A stretch of 34,494 nt of DNA, taken from the NCBI GenBank assembly GCA_035290625.1, contig DATDTY010000028.1, positions 1 through 34,494 of the forward strand. Reading direction: 5' to 3'. Source of the stretch: Candidatus Nanoarchaeia archaeon. GTDB lineage: Archaea; Nanobdellota; Nanobdellia; Woesearchaeales; DATDTY01. Every line of letters starts with the position of its first letter. Position 1 is the stretch's first letter. A model generated the notes under the pieces. It was given only the letters and a program-made list of their open reading frames with translations. It had not been told where the DNA came from and searched no databases. Shown piece by piece: positions 5,920-20,494 of this stretch. The position numbers were made by a program, and so were the translations under genes.

Positions 5920-5924
5920 TAATC

Positions 5925-6221: not shown

Positions 6222-6850
6222 ATAGAACTAGTAAAAGCAGAGAGAAGTATAATCGTCTGGCAAGATTCTATGATTCATATAATAAACTTGCTGAAAGATT
6301 ATGGTTCAGTAAATGGAGGGAAAAGTTTTTCGCTCCGCTAAAAGGAAAGATCCTTGAGGTAGGGATAGGAACAGGAGAAAATATTGGCTATTATGATAAG
6401 AACGCAGAAGTTATAGGAATTGATTTTTCAGAAAAGATGTTAGAGAAGGCCAGAGAAAAGTTAATTAAATCTGGCAAGAAAAACATCACTCTAAAGCAAA
6501 TGGATGCTGAGAATCTTAATTTTAAAGACGATTCGTTTGACTATGTTGTAACAAGCTGTGTTTTTTGCTCGGTTCCTGACCCCATACGAGGCTTAGAGGA
6601 AATAAGGAGAATTCTAAAACCAACAGGCAGACTGATCATGATTGAACATGTGTTAAGCAAAAACCCTGTACTAGCATTGATTGAACACATCCATAATCCC
6701 CTAACAAGGGTTATTATGGGCGTAAACATTAATAGGAACACGAAACAAAATATAATTAATGCTGATATGAAAATCGTAAAAGACCAAAATCTTGCGTTAC
6801 TCGACGTATTTAGGTTATTTATAGCAAGAAAATCATCTAAAGAGGCGTAA
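6218..6850 (+). CDS. class I SAM-dependent methyltransferase (UbiE-like)
   Basis: 210 residues. SAM-binding motif I is ILEVGIGTGENIGYY (about 45-59), followed by the acidic strand VIGIDFSEKMLEKA, motif QMDAENLNFKDDSFDYV and a post-motif ending ILKPTGRLIMIEH. Two cysteines lie in TSCVFCSV (114 and 117), at the end of motif IV. UbiE/COQ5-like methyltransferases act on quinones, lipids or metalloids. Because it sits in an ArsR-led operon, arsenite or another metalloid is a possible substrate, but the three-cysteine pattern of ArsM is not seen, so the substrate is open. It overlaps the previous gene by 4 bp (ATGA), which suggests coupled translation. Confidence 0.85.
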   Translation: MNRTSKSREKYNRLARFYDSYNKLAERLWFSKWREKFFAPLKGKILEVGIGTGENIGYYDKNAEVIGIDFSEKMLEKAREKLIKSGKKNITLKQMDAENLNFKDDSFDYVVTSCVFCSVPDPIRGLEEIRRILKPTGRLIMIEHVLSKNPVLALIEHIHNPLTRVIMGVNINRNTKQNIINADMKIVKDQNLALLDVFRLFIARKSSKEA

Positions 6851-6853
6851 AAT

Positions 6854-7243
6854 ATGAATCCAGAGGATTTTGCATATATTGTTGAAACAGAAAAGAGCTT
6901 TGATGAATCAACTGTTTCAGTTTTGAAAGCAGTTGAGCAGAAAGGTTGGGCTTTGTTTCAGATTTATGATGTAAAAGAGAGGTTAGCGGCAAAGGGGTTT
7001 AAACAAAAGCCATTGAAAATAATTGAGATATGCTCAGGCAAATATGCAAATCAGTTCCTGAATAAGAATAGGTTAATCTCTCTTTGTATGCCTTGCAAAA
7101 TCAATGTGATAGAAGAGAATGGAAAGGTAAAGATTATTGGAATGAAACCGACTATGATATCACAATTTTTCCCAGAAGTTAGCAAAAGAGAAGCTGAGGA
7201 GGTAGAAAGAGAGATTATTGAAATGGTGGATAATGCAAGGTAA
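6854..7243 (+). CDS. DUF302-domain protein
   Basis: 129 residues. The N-terminus FAYIVETEKSFDESTVSVL, a middle stretch KIIEICSGKYANQFL and the later LCMPCKINVIEENGKV match the DUF302 fold: a beta-alpha protein whose family often shows a Cys in the EICxP-like segment and a LLPCxVxVYE-like strand. Here the Cys residues are in EICSG and CMPC. The biochemical role of DUF302 proteins is not settled; in genomes they are often found near sulfur, thiol or metal genes. It begins 3 bp after the methyltransferase stop and is followed by a DsrE-like gene, another sulfur-linked family. No signal peptide is evident, so it is probably cytoplasmic. Confidence 0.8.
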   Translation: MNPEDFAYIVETEKSFDESTVSVLKAVEQKGWALFQIYDVKERLAAKGFKQKPLKIIEICSGKYANQFLNKNRLISLCMPCKINVIEENGKVKIIGMKPTMISQFFPEVSKREAEEVEREIIEMVDNAR

Positions 7244-7246
7244 AGT

Positions 7247-7573
7247 ATGAAAATAGGGGTAATTTTAAACACAAACGATGCAGAAACCTGCTGGAACTGC
7301 TTCAGATTTTGCAACGAAGCGCTCAAGAATAGCCATGCTGTAAAGATATTTTTGCTTGGTAAAGGCGTTGAAGTTGAGAATGTGAAAGATGACAGATTTC
7401 CTCTTCTTGAAGGTTCAATTAAAAAATTTGTGAAAAACAAAGGCAGCATTCTTGCATGCGGAACGTGCTTGCAGATACGGCAGAAAGAAGAAAGCAGGAT
7501 TTGCCCTGTTTCTACAATGGAAGAAATGTTACAAATAGTTGAAGAGTCTGCTAAGGTTTTGACGTTTGGCTAA
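7247..7573 (+). CDS. DsrE/DsrF-like sulfur-relay family protein
   Basis: 108 residues with the alpha/beta DsrE fold: MKIGVILNTNDAETCWNCFR, then AVKIFLLGKGVEVENV and the conserved cysteine strand SILACGTCLQIRQ. The DsrE/TusD Cys in the ACGTC loop is expected to carry a persulfide; C447-type numbering is not needed as the motif is plain. An additional CWNC pair near the N-terminus is noteworthy and could bind metal or take part in thiol exchange. Last gene of the ArsR-led unit, 3 bp after the DUF302 gene. Together with that gene it suggests handling of reactive sulfur or of thiol-bound metals; this is inferred from family and context. Confidence 0.82.
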   Translation: MKIGVILNTNDAETCWNCFRFCNEALKNSHAVKIFLLGKGVEVENVKDDRFPLLEGSIKKFVKNKGSILACGTCLQIRQKEESRICPVSTMEEMLQIVEESAKVLTFG

Positions 7574-7657
7574 CCCTACCTTTTGGGAAGCAGGCTATAT
7601 GCGGCAAAGCCACAGCAACCTTGAAAAGAGGTTCACCGGAGCCCAAACAACCGAAAG

Positions 7658-7681
7658 ATTTATAAGTAAGAAAATTCTTAC
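7658..7681 (+). promoter_or_regulatory. mazEF promoter with operator-like inverted repeat
   Basis: TATA element ATTTATAAG at 7658-7666, preceded by a BRE-like CCGAAAG. It runs directly into GTAAGAAAATTCTTAC (7666-7681), a perfect 7-bp inverted repeat with a 2-bp spacer. AbrB/MazE antitoxins usually bind such repeats to repress their own operon, so this is the likely autoregulatory site. The gap 7574-7701 holds no supported gene. Confidence 0.55.
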
Positions 7682-7701
7682 AACTGCAAGAGGCATTAAA
7701 A

Positions 7702-7959
7702 ATGATGAAAACGATACGAGTGTCAGAGAAGGGACAGATAGCGATTCCTCAGCCAATGAGAGAGACTTTGGGAATTGAAAAAGGAGACGAATTGGTGGTT
7801 ATACAAATAGAGAATAAGATATTGCTGGAAAAGGCACAGAAGATGGAGCAAAAACTAAAGGATGAGTTTAAGGATATTATCAAGTTTAGCGAGAGGTCTC
7901 TAAAAGAGGTTTGGGATAATAAAAGCGATGATATGTGGAGCCAATATCTAAAGAGGTAA
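7702..7959 (+). CDS. mazE: AbrB/MazE-family antitoxin
   Basis: 85 residues; a second ATG lies at 7705 and either could be used. The swapped-hairpin AbrB domain is residues 3-47: KTIRVSEKGQIAIPQPMRE, LGIEKGDELVVIQIENKILL. The C-terminal half is charged and helical, with a short motif SERSLKEVWDNKSDDMW as expected for the toxin-binding tail of MazE. It neutralises the partner ribonuclease and represses the operon. The toxin gene starts 1 bp after its stop, so the pair is one transcript. Confidence 0.88.
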   Translation: MMKTIRVSEKGQIAIPQPMRETLGIEKGDELVVIQIENKILLEKAQKMEQKLKDEFKDIIKFSERSLKEVWDNKSDDMWSQYLKR

Positions 7960-7960
7960 C

Positions 7961-8296
7961 ATGCACATAAATCAAAAGGAGCTGGTTTTGCTCCCGTATC
8001 CGTTTTCAGATTTGGAAGGAACAAAGGTTAGGCCTGCAATTGTTGTATCAAATAATTCTTTCAATAAAAAATCTGCCGATTGTATCATGGTTCCCTTAAC
8101 AACAGTCATCAAAAACGAGCCTTGTTCTGTGATTATAGATCAGCAAAATATGGCTTCAGGCAGGCTTATGAAGCAGAGCAGAGTAAGGGCGGACAAGATT
8201 TTCGCTGTTGAAAAGAGATTAGTTAGTATGAAGATAGGAACGATCACCGACAAAACCTTTGAGAAAATCAAAGCAGAGATTTTTAGGATGTTTTGA
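7961..8296 (+). CDS. mazF: MazF/PemK-family toxin, mRNA endoribonuclease
   Basis: 111 residues. The N-terminal KELVLLPYPFSDLEGTKVRP and AIVVSNN segments are the MazF hallmark (PF--GxKxRPxxVV), with the Arg of KVRP as a catalytic-site candidate. MVPLTTV, QQNMASGRLMKQSRVRADKIF and a final IKAEI helix complete the fold; the Ser/Thr after MVPLT is typical. MazF dimers cut mRNA at short sequence motifs and stop growth when MazE is lost. Full length, no damage seen. The pair sits between two unrelated units, as mobile toxin-antitoxin modules often do. Confidence 0.9.
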   Translation: MHINQKELVLLPYPFSDLEGTKVRPAIVVSNNSFNKKSADCIMVPLTTVIKNEPCSVIIDQQNMASGRLMKQSRVRADKIFAVEKRLVSMKIGTITDKTFEKIKAEIFRMF

Positions 8297-8320
8297 TGAG
8301 CTGCGTTCTGAAACCGATAA

Positions 8321-8330
8321 GATATAAATA
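8321..8330 (+). promoter_or_regulatory. TATA element of the NTPase gene
   Basis: GATATAAATA centred 27 nt before ATG 8353. It favours that start over the in-frame TTG at 8341. Confidence 0.6.
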
Positions 8331-8352
8331 GTATCTCAAATTGCCATTCTCT

Positions 8353-8889
8353 ATGCTCATCAACGTAGGAACCCAGAACCCTTCAAAGCTCCAGGGGGTG
8401 AAGGAAGCAATTGCTCTTGTCCCTCAGCTCAAGGATGCTGAGATCAAGGCAATAGAGGTTGATTCAGGAGTCCACCACCAGCCCAAAAGCTTTGAGGAGA
8501 TTGTAAAAGGCGCAAAGACAAGGGCAAAGAATGCGTACAAAGACTGCGACCTCAGCATTGGCTTGGAATCAGGCATTGCGCAGATTCCAGGAACGATTAC
8601 TGGATGGATGGACTTCTCCTGCTGTGCGATATTTGACGGGAAACGCTATTTTCTCGGCCTCTCCCAAGCATTTGAGTTTCCGCCTGCTGCCATTAAGAAA
8701 GTTACCACCGAGGATAAAAACATTTCCCAAGCTTTTCGCGAATTAGGGTACACTCAAAAGAGCAATCTGGGCAATGAAGAGGGCGCAATCGGTCTTTTGA
8801 CAAAAGGAAGGGTGATGAGAAAAGATCTGAACAAGGAAGCAGTGCTGAGCGCAATTATCCCATGGGAGAACAAAGAGCTCTACGGGTAA
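8353..8889 (+). CDS. inosine/xanthosine triphosphatase (YjjX/DUF84 family)
   Basis: 178 residues from ATG 8353, a start set by the TATA spacing. The opening INVGTQNPSKLQGVKEAI is the YjjX/DUF84 signature; later QPKSFEEIVKGAKTRAKNA, the strand SIGLESGI with its metal-binding Glu, and GLSQAFEFP fit the family. These enzymes hydrolyse ITP and XTP, keeping damaged purines out of nucleic acids, and act in the cytoplasm. The length is normal. The last 10 bp overlap the convergent gene 8880-9317. Confidence 0.87.
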   Translation: MLINVGTQNPSKLQGVKEAIALVPQLKDAEIKAIEVDSGVHHQPKSFEEIVKGAKTRAKNAYKDCDLSIGLESGIAQIPGTITGWMDFSCCAIFDGKRYFLGLSQAFEFPPAAIKKVTTEDKNISQAFRELGYTQKSNLGNEEGAIGLLTKGRVMRKDLNKEAVLSAIIPWENKELYG

Positions 8890-9317
8890 ACCACGTCCTC
8901 TAATTCCAAGAGTTTATAGCCAGAATTCAGTATAAGCTGGTAGAGCAGATCCTCTAGATCCGTATCCGCTATGGCTTGGTCAACGTGTTTTATTTGTAAT
9001 GTAAGGCTGCTGTTTTTAATGTTAAACGATCCACTCATAACGGGATTGAAATAATCAGCCAAGGTTCTTATTGCCAGGCCATGGCGTTCAGCCAAGGTGT
9101 AAAAGTTATCTATCACATTGAAATGATTAGCATTTCCTGCCTGGCACGTAAGATAAAACTCAGGATACTGGGAATCCTGAAATAGGACAAAACAGCCATT
9201 TTGAGAGGTCTCGATATCTATAAGGTTAGTTAATTCTCCATTGCGCTGGGAGAGCAGAGTGAAGTACGGCAGGCTCATAGACAAGAGTGTTTTCATGGAA
9301 TAGTTAAAGCTTTTCAC
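8880..9317 (-). CDS. hypothetical protein
   Basis: 145 residues from GTG 9317. A TATA-like element 29 nt upstream supports this start; ATG 9296 is the alternative. I do not recognise the family. The protein is acidic and soluble-looking with mixed strands and helices (GCFVLFQDSQYPEFYLTC, NVIDNFYTLAERHGLAIRTL) and a C-terminal helix DTDLEDLLYQLILNSGY. No signal peptide, membrane segment or metal motif is seen. The size and strand pattern would allow a small alpha/beta regulatory domain, but that is a guess. It converges on the NTPase gene with a 10-bp overlap and diverges from the GTPase operon. Confidence 0.55.
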   Translation of the reverse strand: MKSFNYSMKTLLSMSLPYFTLLSQRNGELTNLIDIETSQNGCFVLFQDSQYPEFYLTCQAGNANHFNVIDNFYTLAERHGLAIRTLADYFNPVMSGSFNIKNSSLTLQIKHVDQAIADTDLEDLLYQLILNSGYKLLELEDVVYP

Positions 9318-9340
9318 AATACCGTATGCGAGAATAGAAA

Positions 9341-9352
9341 GCTAATTAAAGC
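9341..9352. promoter_or_regulatory. shared, near-symmetric TATA element between divergent genes
   Basis: GCTAATTAAAGC sits 29 nt from GTG 9317 on the minus strand and 30 nt from ATG 9376 on the plus strand. A purine-rich AGAAA upstream on the plus side is BRE-like; the minus side is poorer. One TBP site could serve both genes, with the GTPase operon favoured. Confidence 0.4.
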
Positions 9353-9375
9353 CGAGACCTTCCACTCCTCGAAAG

Positions 9376-10005
9376 ATGAATTTCATAAAAAGGTTTATTC
9401 AGAAGGTATTCCAGAACATCTTCCGCAAGAAGAAGCATATCAAGCTAGGATTATACGGCCCCCCTAATGGAGGCAAGACAACCTTAGCCAATAGGATCTC
9501 CTTGGACTGGCTTGGAGAAGAGATGGGCTCGACTTCTTCAATAGCGCATGAGACGAGAGAGATCCAGATAAAGGAGAAGATAGACATCAAGAACAAAGGG
9601 AAAGAGCTGTCCTTCAATCTGGTGGATACACCAGGGATTGCGACTAAGATTGACTATGAGGAATTCATGAGGAAAGGGCTCGCAGAGAAGGATGCCAAGA
9701 AGCGTGCGAAAGAGGCCACAAGGGGGGTGATCGAGGCGATTAAATGGCTGGATGACATGGACGCAGTAGTGGTCATCATTGATGCCACCAAAGATCCGTA
9801 TTCCCAGGTTAATGTCACGATTATCGGCAACCTTCAGGCGAGGAACATACCGGTCATGATCGTTGCAAACAAAATAGATTTAAAAAGGTCAAGTATTAAG
9901 AAGATACAGGCAGCGTTCCCCCAGTACTCAGTCGTTGGGATTTCAGCGAAGTACGGGGACCATATGGATACCTTTTATGAGTCATTATTTGCATTAGTGG
10001 GGTAA
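9376..10005 (+). CDS. arvA: Era-like small GTPase, ArvA type
   Basis: 209 residues. G1 is GPPNGGKTT (28-36), G3 DTPG (84-87), G4 NKID (165-168) and G5 SAK (190-192). The first 20 residues (MNFIKRFIQKVFQNIFRKKK) form a basic amphipathic helix that could hold the protein on a membrane. The next two genes encode a DUF2073 protein and a DUF2072 zinc ribbon. To my knowledge this trio is the archaeal OapABC/ArvABC cluster, in which the GTPase is required for extracellular vesicle formation in Haloferax. The family match is good; the vesicle role in this organism is inferred from the conserved neighbourhood. Confidence 0.8.
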   Translation: MNFIKRFIQKVFQNIFRKKKHIKLGLYGPPNGGKTTLANRISLDWLGEEMGSTSSIAHETREIQIKEKIDIKNKGKELSFNLVDTPGIATKIDYEEFMRKGLAEKDAKKRAKEATRGVIEAIKWLDDMDAVVVIIDATKDPYSQVNVTIIGNLQARNIPVMIVANKIDLKRSSIKKIQAAFPQYSVVGISAKYGDHMDTFYESLFALVG

Positions 10006-10009
10006 GGAA

Positions 10010-10390
10010 ATGCTAACCATTCAATTTGTGCCGTATGGAGAAATGGAGCCGCTTCAGCCAGAGCAACGGATAAAAAAGGTTCTGGATGTTGCGAAGCAGG
10101 ACAAGATTGTGCTGCTCGAAGGAAGGTTGGCTAAGGAAGAGGAAGCTAACCTTATCTCCATGACCATGTCAGAGATCAACAACAAGTTCAAAGGCATTGA
10201 GCTGGCAGTGATTAACCCTGAAACCCTTGGCGCAGGCTTTGTCGGAAAGCTGAAGGGAACCATGGCTACGCTGCTTCTTGGCAACCGGGTAGGGTTCACC
10301 ATTATCGGGCCTGCGAGCATCGTGAAAGAGATCAAGAAGAACCCAAATAAGATTGAGATGTATATTAATGACCGCAAGAAGAGGAAATAA
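10010..10390 (+). CDS. arvB: DUF2073 protein, ArvB/OapB type
   Basis: 126 residues. MLTIQFVPYGEMEPLQPEQR, the strand KIVLLEGRLAKEEEANLI, and KGIELAVINPE with GNRVGFTIIGPASIV match DUF2073 (OapB). It has no membrane segment and should be cytoplasmic. Its gene starts 4 bp after the GTPase stop and ends 2 bp before the zinc-ribbon gene, so the three are co-translated. The molecular role is not known; in the Haloferax system it works with the GTPase, probably as a partner or regulator. The length is normal for the family. Confidence 0.8.
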   Translation: MLTIQFVPYGEMEPLQPEQRIKKVLDVAKQDKIVLLEGRLAKEEEANLISMTMSEINNKFKGIELAVINPETLGAGFVGKLKGTMATLLLGNRVGFTIIGPASIVKEIKKNPNKIEMYINDRKKRK

Positions 10391-10392
10391 GC

Positions 10393-10773
10393 ATGCCTCA
10401 CCAATGTGTTAGGTGCAACACATTCTATGAAGACGGCGCTGACCAGATCCTGAAGGGTTGCCCCTGCGGTGCGCGGCTGTTTTTTTTTGTGAAAGCAGCG
10501 AAGCTGGAGGAAGCCAGGAAGAAAGCAGACGCATTGAACCTTACCGAAGATGACAAGCAGCAGATTGAGAGGGATATCCTGGATATTGTTGGGAGCAAGG
10601 TGGATGAAGACGAGCCGGTCTTCCTTGATATCGAGGCAATCAATGTTAAGCAGCCCGGGAAGTACGAGCTTGACTTAGTCCATCTATTCAAGAAGGATCC
10701 TCTCATCTTCAAGCTCGCTGAAGGGAAGTATGTGATTGATCTGGTTGAGAGCTTTGGCAGATTGAGGAAATAA
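10393..10773 (+). CDS. arvC: zinc-ribbon protein, ArvC/OapC type (DUF2072)
   Basis: 126 residues. The zinc ribbon is at the N-terminus: CVRC (5 and 8) and CPCG (23 and 25). A helical middle part, then DEPVFLDIEAINVKQPGKYEL and a C-terminal IDLVESF match the DUF2072/OapC family, whose C-terminal part carries the conserved PGxYxLDL strand. Third gene of the GTPase cluster, 2 bp after arvB. The function is inferred from the conserved cluster; a role in membrane shaping or vesicle release is expected, but the ribbon could also bind nucleic acid. Confidence 0.8.
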   Translation: MPHQCVRCNTFYEDGADQILKGCPCGARLFFFVKAAKLEEARKKADALNLTEDDKQQIERDILDIVGSKVDEDEPVFLDIEAINVKQPGKYELDLVHLFKKDPLIFKLAEGKYVIDLVESFGRLRK

Positions 10774-10778
10774 CGGAG

Positions 10779-11516
10779 TCAAGGAGCCGCAGCCTTCCAC
10801 ATCTCTTCGAAGAACTGCCGGTAGGACTGATAAACATCTTCTGATATTGTTTCTATTGCAATCAATCTTTGTGTGTAAAGAAAATTAACGATCCTGTTGT
10901 CGTATATAAGAATAAATGAATTGTTTTTTGTATCAATAAACCTATAGTTCATATGCTTGAAGTCCTTTGCGGCTTTTTTGACCTCTTTCTCGACATCTTT
11001 GTTGAACAATATTTTTGCTTTGATGCCTTGTTTTTCTCTCTGCTTATGAAAATTCAAGAACAGAAGATGCAGGGTTTCATTTGTGGGATCTCCTATCTGC
11101 CTGGCCCCAAAAACATAGTAGGTACCCCCTTTTTTCATTACCCTCAACAGTCTATCATAAACACCTTTGAATCCTTTATACCCTTCATACACATTAGTTT
11201 GTATTCTTTCTTCAGTCTCGTTTTGGATTGCCTTTAGCTCTGGAAGAATTGCCTCTACTTGTTTTTTCTTAGTATCTAACAATTGGACTAAGTGTTCTGG
11301 TGATGCTGCCTGAAAGTGCTTTTTATTTGCTATCATGATATAGCTGACCAAGCCTTTTTTGATGAGGTTATCAAGGCAGTAATATAACGCTGATACCTGG
11401 ATCCCTGTTTCTGCTGTAAGCTTCCATGAAGTGGATTTGCCCAGTTTTAATAGGGCGAGATATACCTTGATCTCATTTTTTGATAATCCAATCTCTTCCA
11501 GGATTCCTTTGAACAA
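10779..11516 (-). CDS. TrmB-family transcriptional regulator
   Basis: 245 residues. The N-terminal winged helix is clear: LEEIGLSKNEIKVYLALLKL, ALYYCLDNLIKKGLVSYI. A coiled-coil linker (about 83-104) leads to a C-terminal sensing domain with YYVFGARQIGDP and a final NSFILIYDNRIVNFLY, the PLD-like fold seen in short TrmB proteins. TrmB regulators bind sugars or other metabolites and control metabolic genes; the nearby divergent acs is a possible target. The start is unusual: the only candidate is TTG at 11516, with no ATG or GTG upstream before a stop and no TATA at the usual distance. The 5' end may have been rearranged. Confidence 0.85.
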   Translation of the reverse strand: MFKGILEEIGLSKNEIKVYLALLKLGKSTSWKLTAETGIQVSALYYCLDNLIKKGLVSYIMIANKKHFQAASPEHLVQLLDTKKKQVEAILPELKAIQNETEERIQTNVYEGYKGFKGVYDRLLRVMKKGGTYYVFGARQIGDPTNETLHLLFLNFHKQREKQGIKAKILFNKDVEKEVKKAAKDFKHMNYRFIDTKNNSFILIYDNRIVNFLYTQRLIAIETISEDVYQSYRQFFEEMWKAAAP

Positions 11517-11693
11517 AGTTGCTACATTGCGCTTGGCGGCGCGGCGTGGTTGGGTGCAACAACCCTTGAAAGCTTGCAGGGTACGCTATACAAGGGGATG
11601 AGAGATAGATACTTGGACATATTAAGCGACTTTAATCACTGGAGATACGCCAATGACGGGGAAGGGTATTGCAGAAAGCAACCAGAAGCTTAA
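11517..11693 (+). pseudogene. possible C-terminal remnant of a lost gene
   Basis: The plus frame ending TAA 11691-11693 encodes a protein-like stretch from about 11523: a hydrophobic IALGGAAWLGATTL, then LYKGMRDRYLDILSDFNHW and YCRKQPEA. It has no usable start except an internal ATG at 11598, and its GC-rich composition differs from the AT-rich DNA that follows (11700-11825). It looks like the tail of a membrane-associated protein whose front part was removed. The family is not recognised. From 11694 to the acs promoter nothing else is seen. Confidence 0.3.
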
Positions 11694-11792
11694 GAATCTT
11701 TTTCATCTTAGAATTTTGTCCTCTCAAAAAGGAGGATTCATTCTCAATAGTATTCAAAAACAGGCTTAACAAGGTATTTAACAATGTATAAA

Positions 11793-11803
11793 ACTTTATA
11801 AAC
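11793..11803 (+). promoter_or_regulatory. TATA element of acs
   Basis: ACTTTATAAAC centred 28 nt before the acs ATG at 11826; a second AT-rich element GTATAAAAC lies just upstream at 11786. Confidence 0.6.
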
Positions 11804-11825
11804 TCCCATTCTCTGATAGGATTTC

Positions 11826-13721
11826 ATGATTTACAAGCCAAACCTCAAGAAGAAGCCTCTGATTAGTTCCAGGCAGTATACAAGGATGTATGATGAGTCC
11901 ATTCGAAACCCTTCGAGGTTCTGGAGAAAAATGGCTTCAGAGATTACATGGAAGAAGAAGTTCTCCGCCTCGTTCAGGAAAACGAGAGACGGAGCAGATT
12001 GGTTTATCGGAGGAAAATTAAACCTCAGCGTCAATTGCTTGGACAGGCATGCTGCAAAAAACCCATGGAAAACAGCATTATTCTGGGAAGGAGAGTTTGG
12101 AGAGCAGCTCAAATACACCTACCAGGAGCTTCTCATTGAAGTATGCAAGCTCGGAAATGTTCTGAAAAAAAGAGGTGTGAAGAAAGGAGATAAGGTATGC
12201 ATCTACATGCCTATGATTCCTGAAGCACTCATTGCAATGCTTGCCTGCGCAAGGATAGGGGCAGTTCATTCTGTCGTTTTTGCAGGCTTCAGCAGCCAGA
12301 GCCTTCGTGAGAGGATCGCAGACTCAAAGAGCAAGGTTGTAATCACAGCAGACGGAGGTTTCAGAAGAGGAAAGATCATTCCCTTGAAGGATATTGCGGA
12401 TAAGGCTGTTCATGGCTTAAGGTTTGTAAAGCATCTCCTTGTCGTTCAGCGTACCAACAGCAAAATTGCTTGGAAGCCGGAAAGGGATCTCTGGTGGGAG
12501 GAGGAGATGAAAGATGCTTCTGCTGTATGCGCTCCAGAATGGATGAGAAGCAATGATCCCCTCTTTATCCTCTACACCTCAGGCTCAACAGGCAAAGCAA
12601 GGGGAATCATGCATCTCAATGGAGGCTATGCAGTCTATGCTACAGCAACATTCAAATACATTTTTGATTACCAGGATGATGTCTACTGGTGCACAGCAGA
12701 TCTTGGATGGATCACAGGCCATACCTATCTTGTGTATGGCCCGCTATTGAACAATGCCACTCTCTTTATGTATGAGGGCGCTCCTGAGTATCCATCTCCG
12801 GATAGATGGTGGCAGCTCATAGAAAAGTATAGGGTGAATACGTTCTATACTTCGCCAACTGGCCTTCGTGCATTGCAGCGCTATGGAGATTCCTGGGTCG
12901 TGAAGCACGATCTCTCTTCCTTGCGGCTTCTAGGGAGCGTAGGCGAGACCATAGGCCCTGAAACCTGGAGATGGTTCTATACAGTTATTGGGAAGAAGAG
13001 ATGCCCTATTGTAGATACCTGGTGGCAGACTGAGACAGGAGGCATCATGATCTCTCCGCTTGCTTGTTTCTCCCTCAAGCCGGGATCTGCCATGAAGCCG
13101 TTTTTTGGAGTTGCTCCATTAATTGTTGACGAAAAAGGCAAGCCTGTAAAGCATGGAGAAAACGGACTCCTCACACTAACAAAGCCTTGGCCTGGCGCAG
13201 GAATAACCCTTGGAAAAGAAGGAGTCCACACCCATGAAAATTACCAGTTGAGCTTTAAGACTTTTTATCTGACTGGAGACCAGGCAAAGCAAGACAGAGA
13301 TGGAGATTACTGGCTGCTTGGCAGGATTGATAATGTGCTCAAGGTGGCCGGCCATCGCATAGGGGCAGCAGAGGTTGAAGCAAGCTTAGCTGCAGACAGC
13401 GCTGTTGCTGAGGCCGCAGTTGTGCCAGTTCCGCACAAAATCAAAGGCTCTGCTATAGCTGCATTTGTTGTGCTGAAGAAGGTCAAGAAAAGTGAAGCTC
13501 TAAAAAGCAGGCTGATTACGAGGGTAGCAGACTCTCTTGGCCATTTTGCAAAGCCAGACTCTGTCATTTTTGTAGATGAATTGCCGAAAAACAGGTCAGG
13601 CAAGATTGTGAGGGAAATCCTCAGGCAGATTGCTGCAGGAGAGAAGCCAGGAACATTTGAGACACTGGTGAATTCAGAGTGTGTAAAGAAGCTGATGCAT
13701 AAGCGCCTACGGATTGGATAA
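11826..13721 (+). CDS. acs: acetyl-CoA synthetase, AMP-forming
   Basis: 631 residues, near the usual 640-650. Converts acetate, ATP and CoA to acetyl-CoA, AMP and pyrophosphate. The ATP-binding P-loop is YTSGSTGKARG (about 250-260). DTWWQTETGG is the adenylate-binding A5 motif, with the Trp that restricts the acyl pocket to acetate. GRIDNVLKVAGHRIG is the hinge segment, and PKNRSGKIVREILR near the C-terminus carries the catalytic Lys (593), the residue controlled by acetylation in bacteria. The first 20 or so residues of the bacterial enzyme appear shortened. In a small archaeal genome this allows acetate uptake; archaea more often use the ADP-forming enzyme in the other direction. Its 3' end overlaps the next gene by 15 bp. 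Confidence 0.93.
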   Translation: MIYKPNLKKKPLISSRQYTRMYDESIRNPSRFWRKMASEITWKKKFSASFRKTRDGADWFIGGKLNLSVNCLDRHAAKNPWKTALFWEGEFGEQLKYTYQELLIEVCKLGNVLKKRGVKKGDKVCIYMPMIPEALIAMLACARIGAVHSVVFAGFSSQSLRERIADSKSKVVITADGGFRRGKIIPLKDIADKAVHGLRFVKHLLVVQRTNSKIAWKPERDLWWEEEMKDASAVCAPEWMRSNDPLFILYTSGSTGKARGIMHLNGGYAVYATATFKYIFDYQDDVYWCTADLGWITGHTYLVYGPLLNNATLFMYEGAPEYPSPDRWWQLIEKYRVNTFYTSPTGLRALQRYGDSWVVKHDLSSLRLLGSVGETIGPETWRWFYTVIGKKRCPIVDTWWQTETGGIMISPLACFSLKPGSAMKPFFGVAPLIVDEKGKPVKHGENGLLTLTKPWPGAGITLGKEGVHTHENYQLSFKTFYLTGDQAKQDRDGDYWLLGRIDNVLKVAGHRIGAAEVEASLAADSAVAEAAVVPVPHKIKGSAIAAFVVLKKVKKSEALKSRLITRVADSLGHFAKPDSVIFVDELPKNRSGKIVREILRQIAAGEKPGTFETLVNSECVKKLMHKRLRIG

Positions 13722-14147
13722 TCCGTTAATTCTATCATTCCATGCTTCTACCCGAATGGAGTGAGACTCAGGAGCTGAAAGAGCGGCCTCAATGGACGAA
13801 AGCTCGTCAATTTCGTTCCTGAGCAGAGCAGCAAGGTCAGAATCGCTGCAGCTCTGAAGAACTGTCAGCTTATCCTTTTCAGTGTGATAAGGGAACAGGA
13901 TGGCAGCCTGGGCAATAGGGCCTTTCTTGAAAATGGTTACTCCATACCATCTACTTCCATCATCAGTATAAGTGTTGCACATGTGCGCATTGTCATCTGA
14001 TACAGTGAGCGCTGCCGCATGAAGCGCGTCATTATTGATTGAATGTGTTTGATAAAAAGTTCTGAGCTTGAGAATAACAGGAAAGGATGTCGTGTAGGAT
14101 TCATCAACTGGCCCAAGAGAGGGATATTGGACGAGGGTTTGCCCCAT
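13707..14147 (-). CDS. hypothetical protein
   Basis: 146 residues from ATG 14147; a longer frame runs back into the tRNA gene, but a TATA element at 14171-14180 is 28 nt before 14147 and settles the start. The family is not recognised. Notable segments are VILKLRTFYQTHSINNDALH, WYGVTIFKKGPIAQAAILFP and a C-terminal helical part DSDLAALLRNEIDELSSIEA. No signal peptide or membrane helix is seen. It lies downstream of tRNA-Pro and the lipoprotein gene on the same strand but has its own promoter. It overlaps acs tail to tail by 15 bp. Confidence 0.55.
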   Translation of the reverse strand: MGQTLVQYPSLGPVDESYTTSFPVILKLRTFYQTHSINNDALHAAALTVSDDNAHMCNTYTDDGSRWYGVTIFKKGPIAQAAILFPYHTEKDKLTVLQSCSDSDLAALLRNEIDELSSIEAALSAPESHSIRVEAWNDRINGLSNP

Positions 14148-14170
14148 AGAACCCAAAGGAGAAACTCCGG

Positions 14171-14180
14171 ATATAAAAAG
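14171..14180 (-). promoter_or_regulatory. TATA element of the 13707-14147 gene
   Basis: CTTTTTATAT on the minus strand, 28 nt before ATG 14147 and only 4 bp past the tRNA 3' end. Confidence 0.55.
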
Positions 14181-14183
14181 ATA

Positions 14184-14256
14184 TGGGGTTGGGAGGATTC
14201 GAACCCCCATTGCCACCTCCCGAAGGTGGAGTGATACCAAGTTACACTACAACCCC
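14184..14256 (-). tRNA. tRNA-Pro (anticodon CGG)
   Basis: 73 nt, full cloverleaf. Acceptor GGGGTTG pairs with CAACCCC; anticodon stem CCACC/GGTGG encloses TTCGGGA, giving anticodon CGG; T stem GGGGG/CCTCC (one G-T pair) encloses TTCGAAT; discriminator A. There is no intron and no encoded CCA, as usual in archaea. The first 10 nt of the tRNA overlap the stop region of the upstream lipoprotein gene, and no separate TATA element is visible, so it may be cut from that gene's transcript. Confidence 0.95.
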
Positions 14257-14771
14257 TTGATTTCGCTGAGCTGCTGCCTCTTTGTCCGGTTATTGAACGG
14301 CCCTACGACGTTTGCAATTACGCAACCATCGATCATATCGTCTTTTTTGGAGATATAGAGCTTCACCATATAAAACTTATCAGGATACCACTCAAAGCTG
14401 TCTGTCGGATTAACAAGCATATTCAATGCATTGTCAGGGGTATTTGCAGGAGCCCAGTTCGTTTCCTCAAGATTAAATCTTGCAAAGGTTGGAGATTCCA
14501 TCAAAGCTGTGAGAGTCTCCTTGGAATTCCATGTCAATGAATACGCTGTTGCTACCTCACATCCTTTCTGAGAGTGATAGGCAAGACCATGAATGCTCTC
14601 AGTTACTTGCGGGTCTTCAAGAAGCATATCAAGGAGTATCCTGCCTGCTTTCTTATGCTGCTTTGGGACTGGCTTGCCGTAAAAAGAAGTGATATAGCTG
14701 TCTTCTGATGAACACGCTGCCAGAGTCAGGAGCAGGAATGCTCTGCGATTGATATACTTTGACCGATCCAT
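14247..14771 (-). CDS. predicted lipoprotein with Tat-like signal
   Basis: 174 residues from ATG 14771. The N-terminus carries NRRAFLLLTLAAC: a twin-arginine pair (9-10), a hydrophobic core and a lipobox LAAC with Cys 20, so it should be exported, possibly folded through Tat, and anchored by lipid. The mature part (SSEDSYITSFYGKPVPKQ, GCEVATAYSLTWNSKETLTA, KFYMVKLYISKKDD) has no recognised domain. The stop codon TAG (14247-14249) lies inside the 5' end of the tRNA-Pro gene. The gene follows the sigma-factor gene on the same strand, and its promoter region is discussed in the findings. Confidence 0.6.
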   Translation of the reverse strand: MDRSKYINRRAFLLLTLAACSSEDSYITSFYGKPVPKQHKKAGRILLDMLLEDPQVTESIHGLAYHSQKGCEVATAYSLTWNSKETLTALMESPTFARFNLEETNWAPANTPDNALNMLVNPTDSFEWYPDKFYMVKLYISKKDDMIDGCVIANVVGPFNNRTKRQQLSEIKGL

Positions 14772-14790
14772 GGAATGATGGATTGTTTTG

Positions 14791-14804
14791 TTTAATATAA
14801 ATGT
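14791..14804 (-). promoter_or_regulatory. TATA element of the lipoprotein gene
   Basis: ACATTTATATTAAA on the minus strand, centred 26 nt before ATG 14771. The same stretch contains TATATT, and TTGGCT lies 16 nt upstream (14816-14821), so it could also be read as a weak sigma-70-type -35/-10 pair. Confidence 0.5.
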
Positions 14805-14858
14805 ATGGCAGGTTAAGCCAAGAACGGCGCCCTAGTGGAAAACTCAGCGCCACTACAA

Positions 14859-16658
14859 TCAAGCGCCACGACGCTCCCTAAGAGCATCCTCCATGATGTG
14901 CTGCTGTACCTTCCATCTGAGATTGTCAATCGCGCCCTCAACAAGGTTAGAGTAAACATGGTATCCAACAGCAATATCCTTATACGAATGCCGTATCTTA
15001 TGCTCATTCAAGCCAAAATGGAGCTTATACCAGTCCTTGTGCTGCTGCAAAGCTCTGACCCCATTCAATGCCTGCTCAAGCTGTTGTTCTGTAAAATGAA
15101 TCCTTCCATCAAACATGATTCCATTCTCCTTGAGGCTAGCCTGGACACGGAGCGTTCCTTTATTGATAGAGGATCGCGGAACATTATAAGAGGCAGCGAG
15201 CTCTGCATAGGTATGCTGTTTTCCGTCAACATACCCGTACTTATGAAAAAACATTTCAAGATAAGGCTGTGTGTTTTGATTTGCCTCCAAGATATGAGAA
15301 AGTTCATTTTTCATATGGAGTCTATACTGAATGTCAAGAGGACGATAATTAGCTTTCGCGCTTATCAGCCTAGAAATCGTTGTTTCAATTTGCCGGATTC
15401 TCTCCCTTGTTACTCCAAACTCATCACCAACCTCCTGCAAAGTGTGGCTGATGCCATCTTGAAGACCATAACGCATGCTAAAGACTGCTTTATCCCGCTC
15501 TGAGACCTGGCGTTTGTGTGTGAAGCGAAGATTGCCCAAAAGAGTTTCCAGCCTCTGCCTTTCTTCAGCATCTATGGCTGCTGCAGCAGGCGACGGAAGT
15601 TTTGTATCAGCGATAATTTCGTGGAAGGTATCATGCTCACCCTCCTTCAACAAATCATCCAAATGCATCGGCTCTTCATGAAAATTAAAATCAGGGCCAG
15701 AAGGAGTCCAGGTCATGTATTTGATATCACTCTTAATCTGGGAGAGCTTATATTGCGGCAATCCAGAGATGATCTGTTCTATGCTTGGCTCCACTCCACT
15801 CTCGTCTATAAACTTTAACACCCATTTTGCAATAGCATGCTGCCGCTCATAGACATGGACAGGAATCCGAATCGTAAACGCTTGATTGACGATTGCTCTC
15901 ATAATCGTCTGGTTGATCCACCATGTGGCGTAGGTGCTGAACTTCAATGGTGCTCCTGTCTCAGGATGGCGCTTCTCGGGGCTGTAATTGAATGCAGCGC
16001 GCTGCAACCCGAAGATTCCTTCCTGAAAAAGATCCATCGGCTCAAGGCTAGGGCAGTTTTTATAATTGGCAAGCACCTTCCCGTAAACAAGCCTAACATT
16101 AGCCTCTATGAGATCATCGATAGCTACTTCATCTCCCTCTCTCACTTGTTTCAGCAAAGCCTGTTCTTCCTCTCGGGTGAGCAGCGGCACTTGGCAAAGA
16201 TAGGTAAGAAAACGCTTCTCATGGCTTGGGCCATCTTCAGGAAAGAAAAGCTTCCGCTCTTTCCTTGCCATTTCAGACCGGAGATCTCTTCTTGGCTTTA
16301 TGCCTCCATTCTTAATCCTATCGGCAACTTTCTGTACGTCTCGAGGCGATAACCAGTAGGAATCTGAATTCGTTTCAGGCCTTATGGCAGCAAGCTCTCC
16401 TGCGAGAATCGCATCGTTGAGTTGTTCATAAGAAAGCCTATTCTTCTCCATTGCCTGAGGAATGGTGATATGCGTGCGATTCATCTTTGAAGAAGGCGCA
16501 AGCCGCTCTGAAGCATAGATAGGCTCATAGCCATACATGCGGAGAAGGGTAGCAACTGACTCTTCAGGAATCCCGGCTATTTCTGCAAGGTTATGAACCG
16601 GCAGATCCCTGTTGATTCGGATCAAATCCGCTGTGCTCAAGGCAATGCTTTCTGCCAT
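14859..16658 (-). CDS. sigma-70-type RNA polymerase sigma factor with extended C-terminus
   Basis: 599 residues from ATG 16658 (set by a TATA element 27 nt upstream; a longer frame reaches 16715). Residues 10-120 carry two small helix-turn-helix-like segments. Region 1.2 is KRFLTYLCQVPLLTREEEQA. Region 2 has DLFQEGIFGLQRA (209-221; the clamp-binding part) and KFSTYATWWINQTIMRAI (239-256), including the aromatic and WW residues that melt and hold the -10 element; then TIRIPVHVYE. Region 3 and the finger (HEIIADTKLPSP) follow. Region 4 is HTLQEVGDEFGVTRERIRQIE (405-425 less the first base-contact spacer), with the TRERIRQ recognition helix intact. Residues 435-599 add two region-4-like units. 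Such a factor is very rare in archaea; complete sigma factors have been reported in some uncultured archaea. Confidence 0.93.
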   Translation of the reverse strand: MAESIALSTADLIRINRDLPVHNLAEIAGIPEESVATLLRMYGYEPIYASERLAPSSKMNRTHITIPQAMEKNRLSYEQLNDAILAGELAAIRPETNSDSYWLSPRDVQKVADRIKNGGIKPRRDLRSEMARKERKLFFPEDGPSHEKRFLTYLCQVPLLTREEEQALLKQVREGDEVAIDDLIEANVRLVYGKVLANYKNCPSLEPMDLFQEGIFGLQRAAFNYSPEKRHPETGAPLKFSTYATWWINQTIMRAIVNQAFTIRIPVHVYERQHAIAKWVLKFIDESGVEPSIEQIISGLPQYKLSQIKSDIKYMTWTPSGPDFNFHEEPMHLDDLLKEGEHDTFHEIIADTKLPSPAAAAIDAEERQRLETLLGNLRFTHKRQVSERDKAVFSMRYGLQDGISHTLQEVGDEFGVTRERIRQIETTISRLISAKANYRPLDIQYRLHMKNELSHILEANQNTQPYLEMFFHKYGYVDGKQHTYAELAASYNVPRSSINKGTLRVQASLKENGIMFDGRIHFTEQQLEQALNGVRALQQHKDWYKLHFGLNEHKIRHSYKDIAVGYHVYSNLVEGAIDNLRWKVQQHIMEDALRERRGA

Positions 16659-16679
16659 TCGCAGGAAGAGAACCTCTGT

Positions 16680-16690
16680 CTTATAAAAAG
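16680..16690 (-). promoter_or_regulatory. TATA element of the sigma-factor gene
   Basis: CTTTTTATAAG on the minus strand, centred 27 nt before ATG 16658. The sigma gene is thus under an ordinary archaeal TBP promoter, within 10 bp of the divergent polX TATA element. Confidence 0.6.
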
Positions 16691-16700
16691 ATTTCCGCAA

Positions 16701-16711
16701 CCTATAAATAG
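16701..16711 (+). promoter_or_regulatory. TATA element of polX
   Basis: CCTATAAATAG centred 27 nt before ATG 16733. It lies inside the 5' part of the longer alternative sigma frame, which is another reason to prefer the shorter sigma start. Confidence 0.6.
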
Positions 16712-16732
16712 CCATTTCCCCTCAACCAGCAT

Positions 16733-18439
16733 ATGAAGAATCCAGAGATCGCATCCATCTTTTATAAGATGGCTGACTACCTTGAAATAAAAGAAGAGCA
16801 GTTCAAGCCTCAGGCATATCGAAAGGCAGCAATGACGATTGAAGAATTAGATGAGGATATTGCTGAACTAGCAAAGCAGGGAAAGCTTCAGGAGCTTCCG
16901 GGGATTGGAGAGTCGCTTGCAAAGAAGATTGTTGAATATATCGAAACAGGAAAGATCCAGGCATTTGAAAGATTACGAAAGGAGCTGCCAATCGATATTG
17001 AGGCCCTAGAGAAGATAGAGGGCATTGGACCAAAGAAAATCGCTTTTTTGTACAAGAAGTTCAGGGTGAGGAATCCAGAAGATTTGCAGAGGATCATTAA
17101 GAGGGGAAAGTTGAAAGGAGTAAAGGGATTTGGAGAGAAGAGCGAGCAGAGATTTCTTCAGGGAATCCAGTTCAGCCAGAAAAGCAAAGGAAGGGTTTTG
17201 CTCGGGGTTGCACTGCCTGAGGCTGAGGCCATTCAGGAGGTTCTGCGAAAACAGAGAGAAGTAAAGAAGGTTGAGATTGCAGGGTCTTTAGGGAGGAAGA
17301 AAGAGACCATCGGAGATATTGACATTCTTATCCAAAGCTCTGATGTGGAGAAGACCTTTGATTTTATTTCTCAGCTCGAATCTGTCAGAAGGGTTTTGGT
17401 GAAAGGGGAGACAAAAATATCCGTCATCCTGAAATCTGGAATACAGGTTGATGTGAGGAATGTTCCTGCTGCTTCATGGGGCTCTGGTCTGCAGTATTTC
17501 TATGGGTCAAAGGAGCACAGCATCCACCTCAGGCAGATTGCAATCAAGAAAGGGTATAAATTATCTGAGTACGGGCTGTTTAAGGGAAAGAAGATGATAG
17601 CCGGAAAGGACGAGAAAGGGATTTACAAGAGATTGGGCGTTGCATGGATGCCTCCTGAGCTGAGGGAGGATAGGGGGGAGATCGAAGCAGGGCAGAAGAG
17701 AAGCCTTCCTGATCTCGTTTCATTGCAGGACGTTCATGGAGACTTTCAGATGCATACAACATATAGTGATGGTGCTGATTCTGTTAAGCAGATGGCTGAA
17801 GCGTGCAATCGGTTGGGATACCACTTTATGGCAATTTCAGATCATATGGGACTGAAGATTGCAAAAGCAATGGACAAAAAGGCACTGTTGAAGCAGCATG
17901 AGGAGATCAGGCAAGCGCAGAAGAGATCATCAATTAACATATTCAGGGCGGCTGAGGTAGATATTAATGATAAAGGAAAGCTGAATATTGATAAGAGCCT
18001 GTTGGAGCATCTTGATATTGTGGTTGGATCTGTGCATATGGGACTGCAGCAGCCAAAGGAAAAGATTACCCAAAGGTACCTTTCTGCGATAGAGTCTGGA
18101 AACATGCATATCCTGGCGCATCCTACAGGAAGGCTGCTGCTTGAGCGAAAGGGAGCTGATGCTGACTGGAGCGAGGTGTTTAAGGCTGCGAAGAAGAATC
18201 ATGTGGCTTTGGAGATCAATGGCCAGCCGAAGAGGCTTGACCTAAATGACACCATGATCCAGGAAGCAAGGAAATATGGATGTGTCTTTTCGACGAACTC
18301 AGACAGCCATTCGGCGTTGCAGCTTCCTAACATGAGATATGCTGTGTTTACTGCAAGAAGAGGCTGGCTTGAGAAGGAGGATATTGTCAACTGCTGGAGC
18401 TTGAAGAAGGTTGAGAGGTGGATAAAGAGAAAAGAATGA
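16733..18439 (+). CDS. polX: family X DNA polymerase with PHP phosphoesterase domain (PolX)
   Basis: 568 residues, the usual length of bacterial/archaeal PolX. Residues 1-150 hold the lyase-like helical domain with helix-hairpin-helix segments (LPGIGESLAKKI, IEGIGPKKI). The palm has GSLGRKKETIGDIDILI with catalytic D195 and D197 and QVDVRNV with D240. The PHP domain starts near 337 with DFQMHTTYSDG and continues with DHMG, HPTGR and SDSH; these bind the metals of a 3'-5' exonuclease/AP endonuclease. The enzyme fills short gaps in DNA repair. It diverges from the sigma-factor gene. All catalytic residues are present. Confidence 0.95.
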   Translation: MKNPEIASIFYKMADYLEIKEEQFKPQAYRKAAMTIEELDEDIAELAKQGKLQELPGIGESLAKKIVEYIETGKIQAFERLRKELPIDIEALEKIEGIGPKKIAFLYKKFRVRNPEDLQRIIKRGKLKGVKGFGEKSEQRFLQGIQFSQKSKGRVLLGVALPEAEAIQEVLRKQREVKKVEIAGSLGRKKETIGDIDILIQSSDVEKTFDFISQLESVRRVLVKGETKISVILKSGIQVDVRNVPAASWGSGLQYFYGSKEHSIHLRQIAIKKGYKLSEYGLFKGKKMIAGKDEKGIYKRLGVAWMPPELREDRGEIEAGQKRSLPDLVSLQDVHGDFQMHTTYSDGADSVKQMAEACNRLGYHFMAISDHMGLKIAKAMDKKALLKQHEEIRQAQKRSSINIFRAAEVDINDKGKLNIDKSLLEHLDIVVGSVHMGLQQPKEKITQRYLSAIESGNMHILAHPTGRLLLERKGADADWSEVFKAAKKNHVALEINGQPKRLDLNDTMIQEARKYGCVFSTNSDSHSALQLPNMRYAVFTARRGWLEKEDIVNCWSLKKVERWIKRKE

Positions 18440-18604
18440 CGGCGTTAATACGAAATAACTTTTATTCTGTTGATTCTTTTAAAATGAGCAGCATTCTTCG
18501 TGATAATTGAGGATATGTTGGAAACAAGGATTTTGACAGCGATAAAACAATTAAGAGAGAGGAAGTGTGATATATCCGAGAGATCCTGCTTCTTTTGTTA
18601 AATC
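18440..18604. other. intergenic region, no supported gene
   Basis: 165 bp between polX and the convergent SLOG-like gene. A 28-codon frame (18515-18601) with GAGG before its ATG exists but has no recognisable product. No clear terminator hairpin is seen. Confidence 0.3.
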
Positions 18605-19156
18605 CTAGCTAAGAAATCTCTTCTTCACAACATCGGCAAGTTCATCCATTCTTTGCACATAGGTTAGCTCGTATAATTGCTCCTTAATCTCCTCGGGCAG
18701 TTTTCCGGAGAACGTATTTTCAAAAATAATAAGGGGGATCTTCTTGTCCAAGAACTTTGCATGGTATTTCATCATGCAGATTTCCACCAGGGATCCCGGA
18801 GAAAGCCCAATGCAGATGCAGAGGTCTCCAAAGGAAGCAATCTCTCCGTCTGCCTCATACCAGGTCTTAACATCTACAGTTTCGTCCAGGATGCCGATGA
18901 ATTCCCTGATATGCTCAACGCCGAATTTCTTGTCCAATAAAGGCACAATTCCTGTCACCTTATGGCCGCCTGCTTCTTTGTAAGCTTTTGCAATCTCGAA
19001 AGGGATGCCTTCATCCGGCACAATGATGAGCTCTGCAGCCAAGGATGCTGCGTACGTCCCTAATTGGCTGATTAATGCGTTGAGGTCCTCCTGGCTTATC
19101 TTGCTGTTCTTAAGGATGGTGTCTTTGCTTGAAGAGCCGATGATGGATAGTTTCAT
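18605..19156 (-). CDS. SLOG/LOG-like Rossmann-fold protein
   Basis: 183 residues. MKLSIIGSSSKDT, then LAAELIIVPDEGIPFEIAKA and ASFGDLCICIGLSPGSLVEI, give the alternating strands and the glycine-rich PGSLVEI loop, comparable to the PGGxGTxxE-type loop of LOG/SLOG proteins. These bind nucleotides or nucleotide-linked ligands, and members act as cytokinin-like nucleoside hydrolases or as sensors. The catalytic R/E pair of true LOG enzymes is not obvious, so a sensing or unknown role is more likely. Possible start element CTTAAG 28 nt upstream is weak. It diverges from the GlgC-like gene. Confidence 0.55.
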   Translation of the reverse strand: MKLSIIGSSSKDTILKNSKISQEDLNALISQLGTYAASLAAELIIVPDEGIPFEIAKAYKEAGGHKVTGIVPLLDKKFGVEHIREFIGILDETVDVKTWYEADGEIASFGDLCICIGLSPGSLVEICMMKYHAKFLDKKIPLIIFENTFSGKLPEEIKEQLYELTYVQRMDELADVVKKRFLS

Positions 19157-19193
19157 TAGAGGGCAGAAGGTTGTGGTGGCTTAAGTGACTTTG

Positions 19194-19216
19194 TAATTAC
19201 TTTATGATAGTAATTA
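19194..19216. promoter_or_regulatory. inverted repeat upstream of glgC, candidate operator
   Basis: TAATTACT (19194-19201) and AGTAATTA (19209-19216) pair perfectly across a 7-bp spacer. It lies 8 bp before the glgC TATA element and inside the divergent 99-bp gap, where an activator or a repressor of either gene could bind. Confidence 0.4.
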
Positions 19217-19223
19217 ATCGAAA

Positions 19224-19234
19224 CATTTATAAGG
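19224..19234 (+). promoter_or_regulatory. TATA element of glgC
   Basis: CATTTATAAGG centred 27 nt before ATG 19256, with CGAAA as a BRE-like element just upstream. Confidence 0.6.
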
Positions 19235-19255
19235 TCTCTAAGATCTTTTTTTTGT

Positions 19256-20494
19256 ATGGAGGAAGTACTTTCAATTGTATTAGCTGGGGGCAGGGGAGAG
19301 CGGCTAGCCCCGTTCACAGATGAGATTCCCAAGCCGCTGGTTCCTTATATAGGGAGCATTCCGCTCATAAACTTTCCATTAAGCAACCTCGTCAATTCAA
19401 ATTTTAGGAGGATTCATGTGTACACACAACACAAGAGTAATGCATTAAACGAGTTTGTGTCTAAAAACTGGAGGCCGCTGGTTGGATCTATTGATGAGTT
19501 TATTGACCATCGAAATGCCCAGATTGAGGGAGGAGGGTATGCAGGAACGGCGCATGCAGTACTCGAAAATCTAGGTGAGATTAATCACCTTCGCCCATCG
19601 TATGTTATTGTTGCGAGCGCTGACCACATCTATAAGATGGATTTCAATCAAATGCTGAATGAGCATACGAAGCAAAACGCTGATGTTAGTATCGCTGCTC
19701 TACCCGTTCTGAAGAAAGATGCTGCCCGCTTGGGGGTCATGGAAACCAAGAAAGGCGGGAGAATAACAGGATTTCATGAGAAAGTGGAAGATCCACCGGA
19801 AATGCCGGATTTTCCTGGGTACTGTCTGGCAAATATGGGCATCTATATTTTTAAGACGTCGGCATTATCGTATATTGGTGAAGAGGATATAGATTTTGGA
19901 AAGAATGTGTTTCCGAGAATAGTAAACGACCGCCACTTGCATGCGTATACCTATACGACAAACAGGATTCCAACAGAGACCGGTGAAGAAGAAAAGTTAA
20001 ACTGGATCGATGTTGGGACGGTACGCGCATTATTTGATGCGTCAATGGATCAGGTGAAGGCATTACCCAAATCAATTGATTTATATAATAAAAAATGGAG
20101 GATATGGAATTTCCTTAATGGGCATACCCTGCCTGCAAAGATTTATGGGATTACTTCCAACGGCCGCTATTTGGCATCTCCGGGGTGTATTGTTGAGAAG
20201 TGCTCACTTGAGAATGTAATTTTAGGCCCGGGATCAGTAGCTGAAGACAGCACCCTTACAGACGTGATTACCCATAATGATGTAGTTATTCAGCCGGGAG
20301 CTTGCATAAAGGGAACCATCATTGACAGCGGAGCGCAGGTTGAGCAGGGCGTTCAGATAGGATTTGATGATGAGGCAGATATGCGAAGGGGATTTCTTCC
20401 AAAGAATGCCGCAGGAAAGCCCTACACTGAAGGGGTTCGTGTGATTCCAAGGAGAATGGCTGCGACAAAGGACGGTCTTGTTCAGATACGTTAA
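19256..20494 (+). CDS. glgC: glucose-1-phosphate adenylyltransferase-family protein (GlgC-like)
   Basis: 412 residues, typical of GlgC. The nucleotide-binding signature is VLAGGRGERLAPFTDEIPKP (8-27). SNLVNSNFRRIHVYTQHKSN corresponds to the GlgC stretch ending TQYKSHSL. GYAGTAHAV, ADHIYKMDF and NWIDVGTVRALFDASMD are further GlgC hallmarks. The C-terminal ~120 residues form a left-handed beta-helix with repeats such as CIVEKCSLENVILGPGSVAE. GlgC makes ADP-glucose for glycogen, but some relatives make other nucleotide sugars, and several residues here (APFTDEIPKP instead of LxPLTxxRAKP) are changed, so the substrate is uncertain. No glycogen synthase is in the window. Confidence 0.8.
   Translation: MEEVLSIVLAGGRGERLAPFTDEIPKPLVPYIGSIPLINFPLSNLVNSNFRRIHVYTQHKSNALNEFVSKNWRPLVGSIDEFIDHRNAQIEGGGYAGTAHAVLENLGEINHLRPSYVIVASADHIYKMDFNQMLNEHTKQNADVSIAALPVLKKDAARLGVMETKKGGRITGFHEKVEDPPEMPDFPGYCLANMGIYIFKTSALSYIGEEDIDFGKNVFPRIVNDRHLHAYTYTTNRIPTETGEEEKLNWIDVGTVRALFDASMDQVKALPKSIDLYNKKWRIWNFLNGHTLPAKIYGITSNGRYLASPGCIVEKCSLENVILGPGSVAEDSTLTDVITHNDVVIQPGACIKGTIIDSGAQVEQGVQIGFDDEADMRRGFLPKNAAGKPYTEGVRVIPRRMAATKDGLVQIR

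Follow-up and report, generated by a model that had tools for sequence, protein, structure and literature searches.

A sigma-70-type factor with predicted tandem region-4-like domains in a Woesearchaeales genome

What could a sigma factor do in a cell whose genome also encodes TBP, TFB and an archaeal RNA polymerase? The question is raised by contig DATDTY010000028.1 of assembly GCA_035290625.1, from a Candidatus Nanoarchaeia archaeon of the order Woesearchaeales, of which we have analyzed the whole 34,494 nucleotides (the window). It encodes a sigma-70-type protein at 14859–16658 on the minus strand. Pfam places region 2 (PF04542) at 32.9 bits against a cut-off of 24 and region 4 (PF04545) at 55.9 bits against 24.1, and the NCBIfam sigma-70 superfamily model TIGR02937 scores 74.2 bits (cut-off 42.9). 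A phmmer search against sigma factors in the PDB returned E = 6e-38, with matches to SigA and RpoS. Judged by sequence, the resemblance to sigma factors is far above chance. We favor the reading, with a probability of roughly 0.4, that the protein serves the archaeal polymerase as an alternative initiation factor and docks on it by way of a remodelled interface.

The protein fits none of the narrower sigma classes compared here. Region 1.2 (PF00140) is present but falls slightly short at 20.2 bits (cut-off 22), so the protein is not assigned to the primary-like groups 1 and 2; the scores against the RpoD equivalog TIGR02393 (166 bits, cut-off 354) and the RpoS equivalog TIGR02394 (153.5 bits, cut-off 378.7) are far too low for either. 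Nor is it an extracytoplasmic function (ECF, group 4) factor, these being short proteins with only regions 2 and 4, since a part of it resembles region 1.2 and its extensions are long. Region 3 (PF04539) was not reported by Pfam, and region 3 and the finger can be discerned only in alignments. An earlier note on this DNA had described regions 1.2, 2, 3, the finger and 4 as all recognizable; that holds for regions 2 and 4, and must be tempered for the others. The three motifs it had singled out, DLFQEG, KFSTYATWWINQ and TRERIRQ, are all present. The ATG at 16658 is the more likely start, as it aligns with the start of a relative, P0002; an alternative ATG at 16715 would lengthen the open reading frame (ORF), whose stop ends at 14859, to about 617–618 amino acids. 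The features, from the N terminus with helix-turn-helix abbreviated to HTH, are:

14859..16658, minus strand: sigma-70-type factor gene, 599 amino acids from the likely start
16533..16646, minus strand: N-terminal three-helix segment, HTH-like, from predicted helices only
16308..16472, minus strand: second N-terminal domain, HTH_17-like, from a Pfam match on the aligned part of P0002
16128..16193, minus strand: sigma region 1.2, slightly under the Pfam cut-off
15882..16112, minus strand: sigma region 2 (Pfam)
16017..16034, minus strand: DLFQEG, clamp-facing part of region 2.2 (alignment)
15909..15944, minus strand: KFSTYATWWINQ, −10 melting and recognition part of regions 2.3–2.4 (alignment)
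15381..15506, minus strand: sigma region 4, first copy (Pfam)
15390..15410, minus strand: TRERIRQ, −35 recognition helix (alignment)
15108..15329, minus strand: C1, second sigma-4-like domain, from an hhalign profile match to bacterial region 4 (probability 92%)
14871..15092, minus strand: second extra sigma-4-like domain of the tail, from predicted structure only

About 160 residues lie beyond region 4, a tail that the earlier note did not mention. They are predicted to form two additional sigma-4-like domains; C1 is supported by a profile match, the other by predicted structure only. Together with the N-terminal segments (the HTH_17 match has E = 6e-4 and 20.4 bits, under the cut-off of 27), the protein would have about five HTH-like units, some of them only predicted. 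It thus resembles RpoD and SigA in regions 1.2 (weakly), 2 and 4 and in most of the −10 and −35 residues, and differs from them in its N-terminal HTH-like parts and its two extra sigma-4-like domains. Neither a sigma factor with tandem region 4 nor an archaeal multi-sigma operon turned up in the open-license literature, which is a weak negative. The tandem tail, partly predicted as it is, appears to be a new variant, whereas the presence of sigma factors in this archaeal group was known before: sigma-70 genes are prevalent among Woesearchaeota and are accompanied by TBP, TFB and TFE, without an anti-sigma candidate, according to the passage on fam00359 in Castelle et al. 2021 (PMC8204110). That work concerns the same group and kind of protein and likewise excludes mis-binning; the passage is silent on tandem region 4, multiple sigma factors per genome, triple operons and the polymerase interface.

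As the earlier note had supposed, the gene is a genuine part of an archaeal genome; it is no artefact. Archaeal-type genes stand on both sides of it: one flank has OapC and HerA, the other Spt5-NGN and a D-aminoacyl-tRNA deacylase; the adjacent PolX gene and the nearby FtsZ and L11 genes are not archaea-specific. Its codon usage has a cosine of 0.944 to that of the rest, joint second highest among 24 genes. The genome contains region 2 at six places, all above the cut-off (contigs C28, C33, C31 with two adjoining genes, C9 and C81), in a search that was positive in 10 of 10 control bacteria and in 0 of 4 control archaea. It also has TBP, a TFE-alpha identified by Pfam, a TFB that matched in the region-4 search and was identified by eye, and one match each for Rpo1 and Rpo2. 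An assembly chimera or bacterial contamination might be suspected from the 84 contigs of the bin and its estimated contamination of 1.14%. We regard this as exceedingly improbable, given the flanking genes and codon usage, a 90%-identity cluster of the protein with six members on four contigs in a public collection, a sigma gene in G010, a genome of the order that consists of a single contig, and the archaeal-type genes that share contigs with four of the five remaining sigma genes. Contig C31 has Rrp42 and an archaeal proteasome alpha subunit alongside its two sigma genes, and C33 an archaeal-type S15 above the cut-off. The case of C9 depends on a Taw3-like gene under the cut-off, and the neighbors on C81 are not decisive; overall, five of the six sigma genes share contigs with archaeal-type genes, C9 included.

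The residues with which a sigma factor reads DNA are largely in place. In E. coli RpoD numbering, the protein keeps F427, T429, Y430, W433, W434 and Q437 for −10 melting and recognition and R584, E585, R588 and Q589 for −35 recognition, as expected of a functional sigma factor. On the clamp face D403, Q406 and E407 are retained. The altered positions are R436N, T440M, Y425L, N409I and M413Q. Conservation was assessed over 64 distinct archaeal region-2 sequences. Both faces are well conserved at this level: T429 is found in 55/64, Y430 in 58/64, W434 in 56/64, Q437 in 52/64 and W433 in 39/64, and the −35 residues R584, E585, R588 and Q589 in 54, 54, 52 and 55 of 60. On the clamp face, D403 is kept in 58/63 (rank 4th of 234 columns), E407 in 53/64 (rank 30th), N409 in 48/64 and Q406 in 45/64. 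The two changes in the −10 helix to which the earlier note drew attention, R436N and T440M, are genuine, yet such changes are frequent among archaeal sigma factors (R436 kept in 33/64, T440 in 24/64).

The bacterial flap-tip helix holds sigma region 4. In the Rpo2 of this genome the corresponding stretch (E. coli contacts E898–F906) is eight residues shorter between flanking anchors, the gap falling opposite beta L902–K909. Rpo1 aligns without gaps to E. coli beta′, and has I, L and H at R275, E295 and A302. The same three residues occur in 22 other readable Rpo1 sequences (23 of 24 genomes with its own), whether or not sigma genes are present. Single substitutions at these three beta′ positions impair holoenzyme formation (PMC8321222, in the part consulted), and a passage of PMC10216364 gives eight contacts on beta′ for sigma-32, of which only R278 and I291 are identical here. 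The presumed partner polymerase therefore lacks the docking residues available to RpoD and SigA in bacteria, and this weighs against the reading that we favor. The main puzzle is thus a sigma factor that looks bacterial facing a polymerase that looks archaeal. The clamp coiled coil is a common site of TFE, TFB, Spt4/5 and sigma70, as stated in PMC3223566 (seen in part), and the earlier note was correct to name it as shared with Spt5 and TFE. Its proposal that the protein binds the Rpo1 clamp finds some support in the retained D403, Q406 and E407, but cannot stand as simply written: with I/L/H on Rpo1 and a shortened Rpo2, binding would require an altered interface.

The changes at both docking sites would fit a reading in which these proteins are ex-sigma factors that have lost polymerase binding and act as stand-alone DNA-binding regulators, keeping their DNA-reading helices and gaining others. 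This principal alternative, which we consider doubtful, is also consistent with the HTH-like domains at both ends of the protein, with the great sequence drift across the order, and with the paralogue on C33, in which W433 and most of the −35 helix are gone (PEARVIK in place of TRERIRQ). It does not readily explain why D403 and E407, for which we know of no role in DNA binding, are among the better-kept columns, or why Y430 and W434, needless for a plain double-strand binder, are so widely retained. A different possibility is that the protein binds the clamp without choosing promoters, blocking or displacing TFE, TFB or Spt4/5 as an inhibitor or switch. The shared use of the coiled coil (PMC3223566, as above) and the retained part of the clamp face would suit this, as would the number of canonical sigma-70-type promoters in window positions 1–20000, which are not enriched (30 observed, 35.4 expected). 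We think it improbable, because the protein also keeps most of its −10 and −35 recognition residues and has extra DNA-binding domains, the second of them only predicted. As between alternative initiation and a stand-alone regulator, the lack of promoter enrichment favors neither.

As an alternative initiation factor, the protein would place its sigma-2 domain on the Rpo1 clamp coiled coil, where its kept aromatics could open A/T-rich DNA. Three sigma-4-like domains in tandem, the two extra ones being predicted, may grip the upstream DNA and so replace the flap-tip contact; we propose this arrangement because the full flap-tip helix is absent and could not hold region 4. TFE and Spt4/5 would be competitors of the factor at the clamp, and the factor would choose promoters. 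TFB and TFE are themselves initiation factors on the clamp coiled coil (PMC3223566, same passage), encoded in this genome by genes separate from that of the sigma factor.

The sigma gene itself may be controlled from an archaeal promoter. By eye there is a TATA-like box 23–32 nucleotides upstream of the ATG at 16658, the assignment being by inference:

16681..16690, minus strand: CTTTTTATAA, archaeal TATA-like box

This would put the gene under TBP and TFB, and the sigma factor would form a second layer beneath the basal system. Multi-sigma operons occur in two genomes of a single genus, G191 and G192:

L100, 86–5275 (G191), minus strand: operon of a winged-helix-type membrane protein (DUF7343), then three sigma-70-type genes
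L101, 1817–6994 (G192), plus strand: operon of a winged-helix-type membrane protein (DUF7343), then three sigma-70-type genes

The three sigma genes encode 475–494 amino acids and lie on one strand. The final 41 bases upstream of the operon are identical in the two genomes, including the TATA-like CTTTTTATA; farther upstream the sequences diverge. With such boxes at both the window gene and these operons, the sigma genes appear to be transcribed by the basal archaeal system. The first gene of the operon encodes what by eye is a membrane protein with a C-terminal winged-helix-type domain, DUF7343. By its position it is a candidate regulator of archaeal sigma factors; no relative was found in the other DNA stretches compared.

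The D403/Q406/E407 face would fit bacterial beta′ better than the organism's own Rpo1, and a sigma factor delivered to a foreign RNA polymerase, that of a bacterial partner or a phage, would make sense of this. We consider it very improbable. No secretion signal is apparent by eye, and the codon style of the contig, the archaeal-type neighbors of five of the six sigma genes (counting that on C9, with its sub-cut-off Taw3-like gene) and the TATA-like promoter of the triple operons point to use at home. The phage sigma factor family phrog_351 matches residues 66–521 by profile (E = 2.8e-49). Only two patterns were usable when viral_contigs was searched with the family profile, and no relative came up.

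Earlier sigma factors in archaeal single-cell genomes were reportedly described by Rinke et al. in 2013. Among the other sigma genes of the present genome are:

L042 5127–6716 and L041 12297–15090, minus strand: three further sigma-70-type genes, two adjoining (RpoD models)
L116 1435–1968, contig C81, plus strand: sixth sigma-type gene, ECF-like, 177 amino acids (Pfam region 2 and ECF model above cut-off)

The first three score 182–264 bits against two RpoD models, compared with 160–166 for the window gene, all below the equivalog cut-offs, and the gene on C81 corresponds to the ECF (group 4) type. With the window protein as query, matches were found in 24 of 60 genomes; a family profile matched in 116 of 352 genomes of the order, and a broader one in 125 of 371 of the phylum, its own genome counted each time. 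Close relatives are few by sequence identity: P0002 (53% over 96%), P0003 from a Candidatus Nanoarchaeia archaeon (55% over 80%) and the C33 paralogue (43%). The other relatives among the 120 listed have at most 62% query coverage at no more than 40% identity.

Some other features of the window may be recorded. An orphan ORF at 3888–4340 (minus strand) has two copies of a repeat of about 37 residues (YYxxHYxGLTRGQ...), also carried by a sigma-70 protein of genome G200 within its N-terminal part (L104 6388–9018; 50–54% identity over 41–44 residues); the remaining 59 of the 60 searched genomes, a set to which G200 does not belong, gave no match to the ORF. Directly downstream of the sigma gene, 14247–14771 (minus strand) is an orphan gene with RR..LAAC, by eye resembling a Tat lipoprotein signal. 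Neither this gene nor the orphan ORFs 8880–9317 and 30413–31873 (both minus strand) matched Pfam, NCBIfam or PHROGs, and PHROGs gave no match for four orphan ORFs of the window. A tRNA-Pro (CGG) at 14184–14256 (minus strand) overlaps the 5′ part of the ORF 13707–14240 (minus strand), which therefore begins later or is no gene.

Sigma factors on the one hand and TFB and TFE on the other are commonly held to separate bacterial from archaeal transcription. Here they occur side by side, as looked at in the genome of the window only. It is conceivable, if rather unlikely as a whole, that two initiation systems share one polymerase: TBP/TFB and a subordinate network of six sigma factors, with sigma-2 re-fitted to the archaeal clamp, some factors anchored by three sigma-4 domains, and a membrane-bound winged-helix regulator in relatives. 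With sigma genes in about one-third of the searched genomes, the lineage offers a direct test of two questions: can an archaeal polymerase work with a bacterial initiation factor, and what does a sigma factor require if its flap-tip dock is shortened? To the second, the tandem sigma-4 tail would be a concrete and testable answer.
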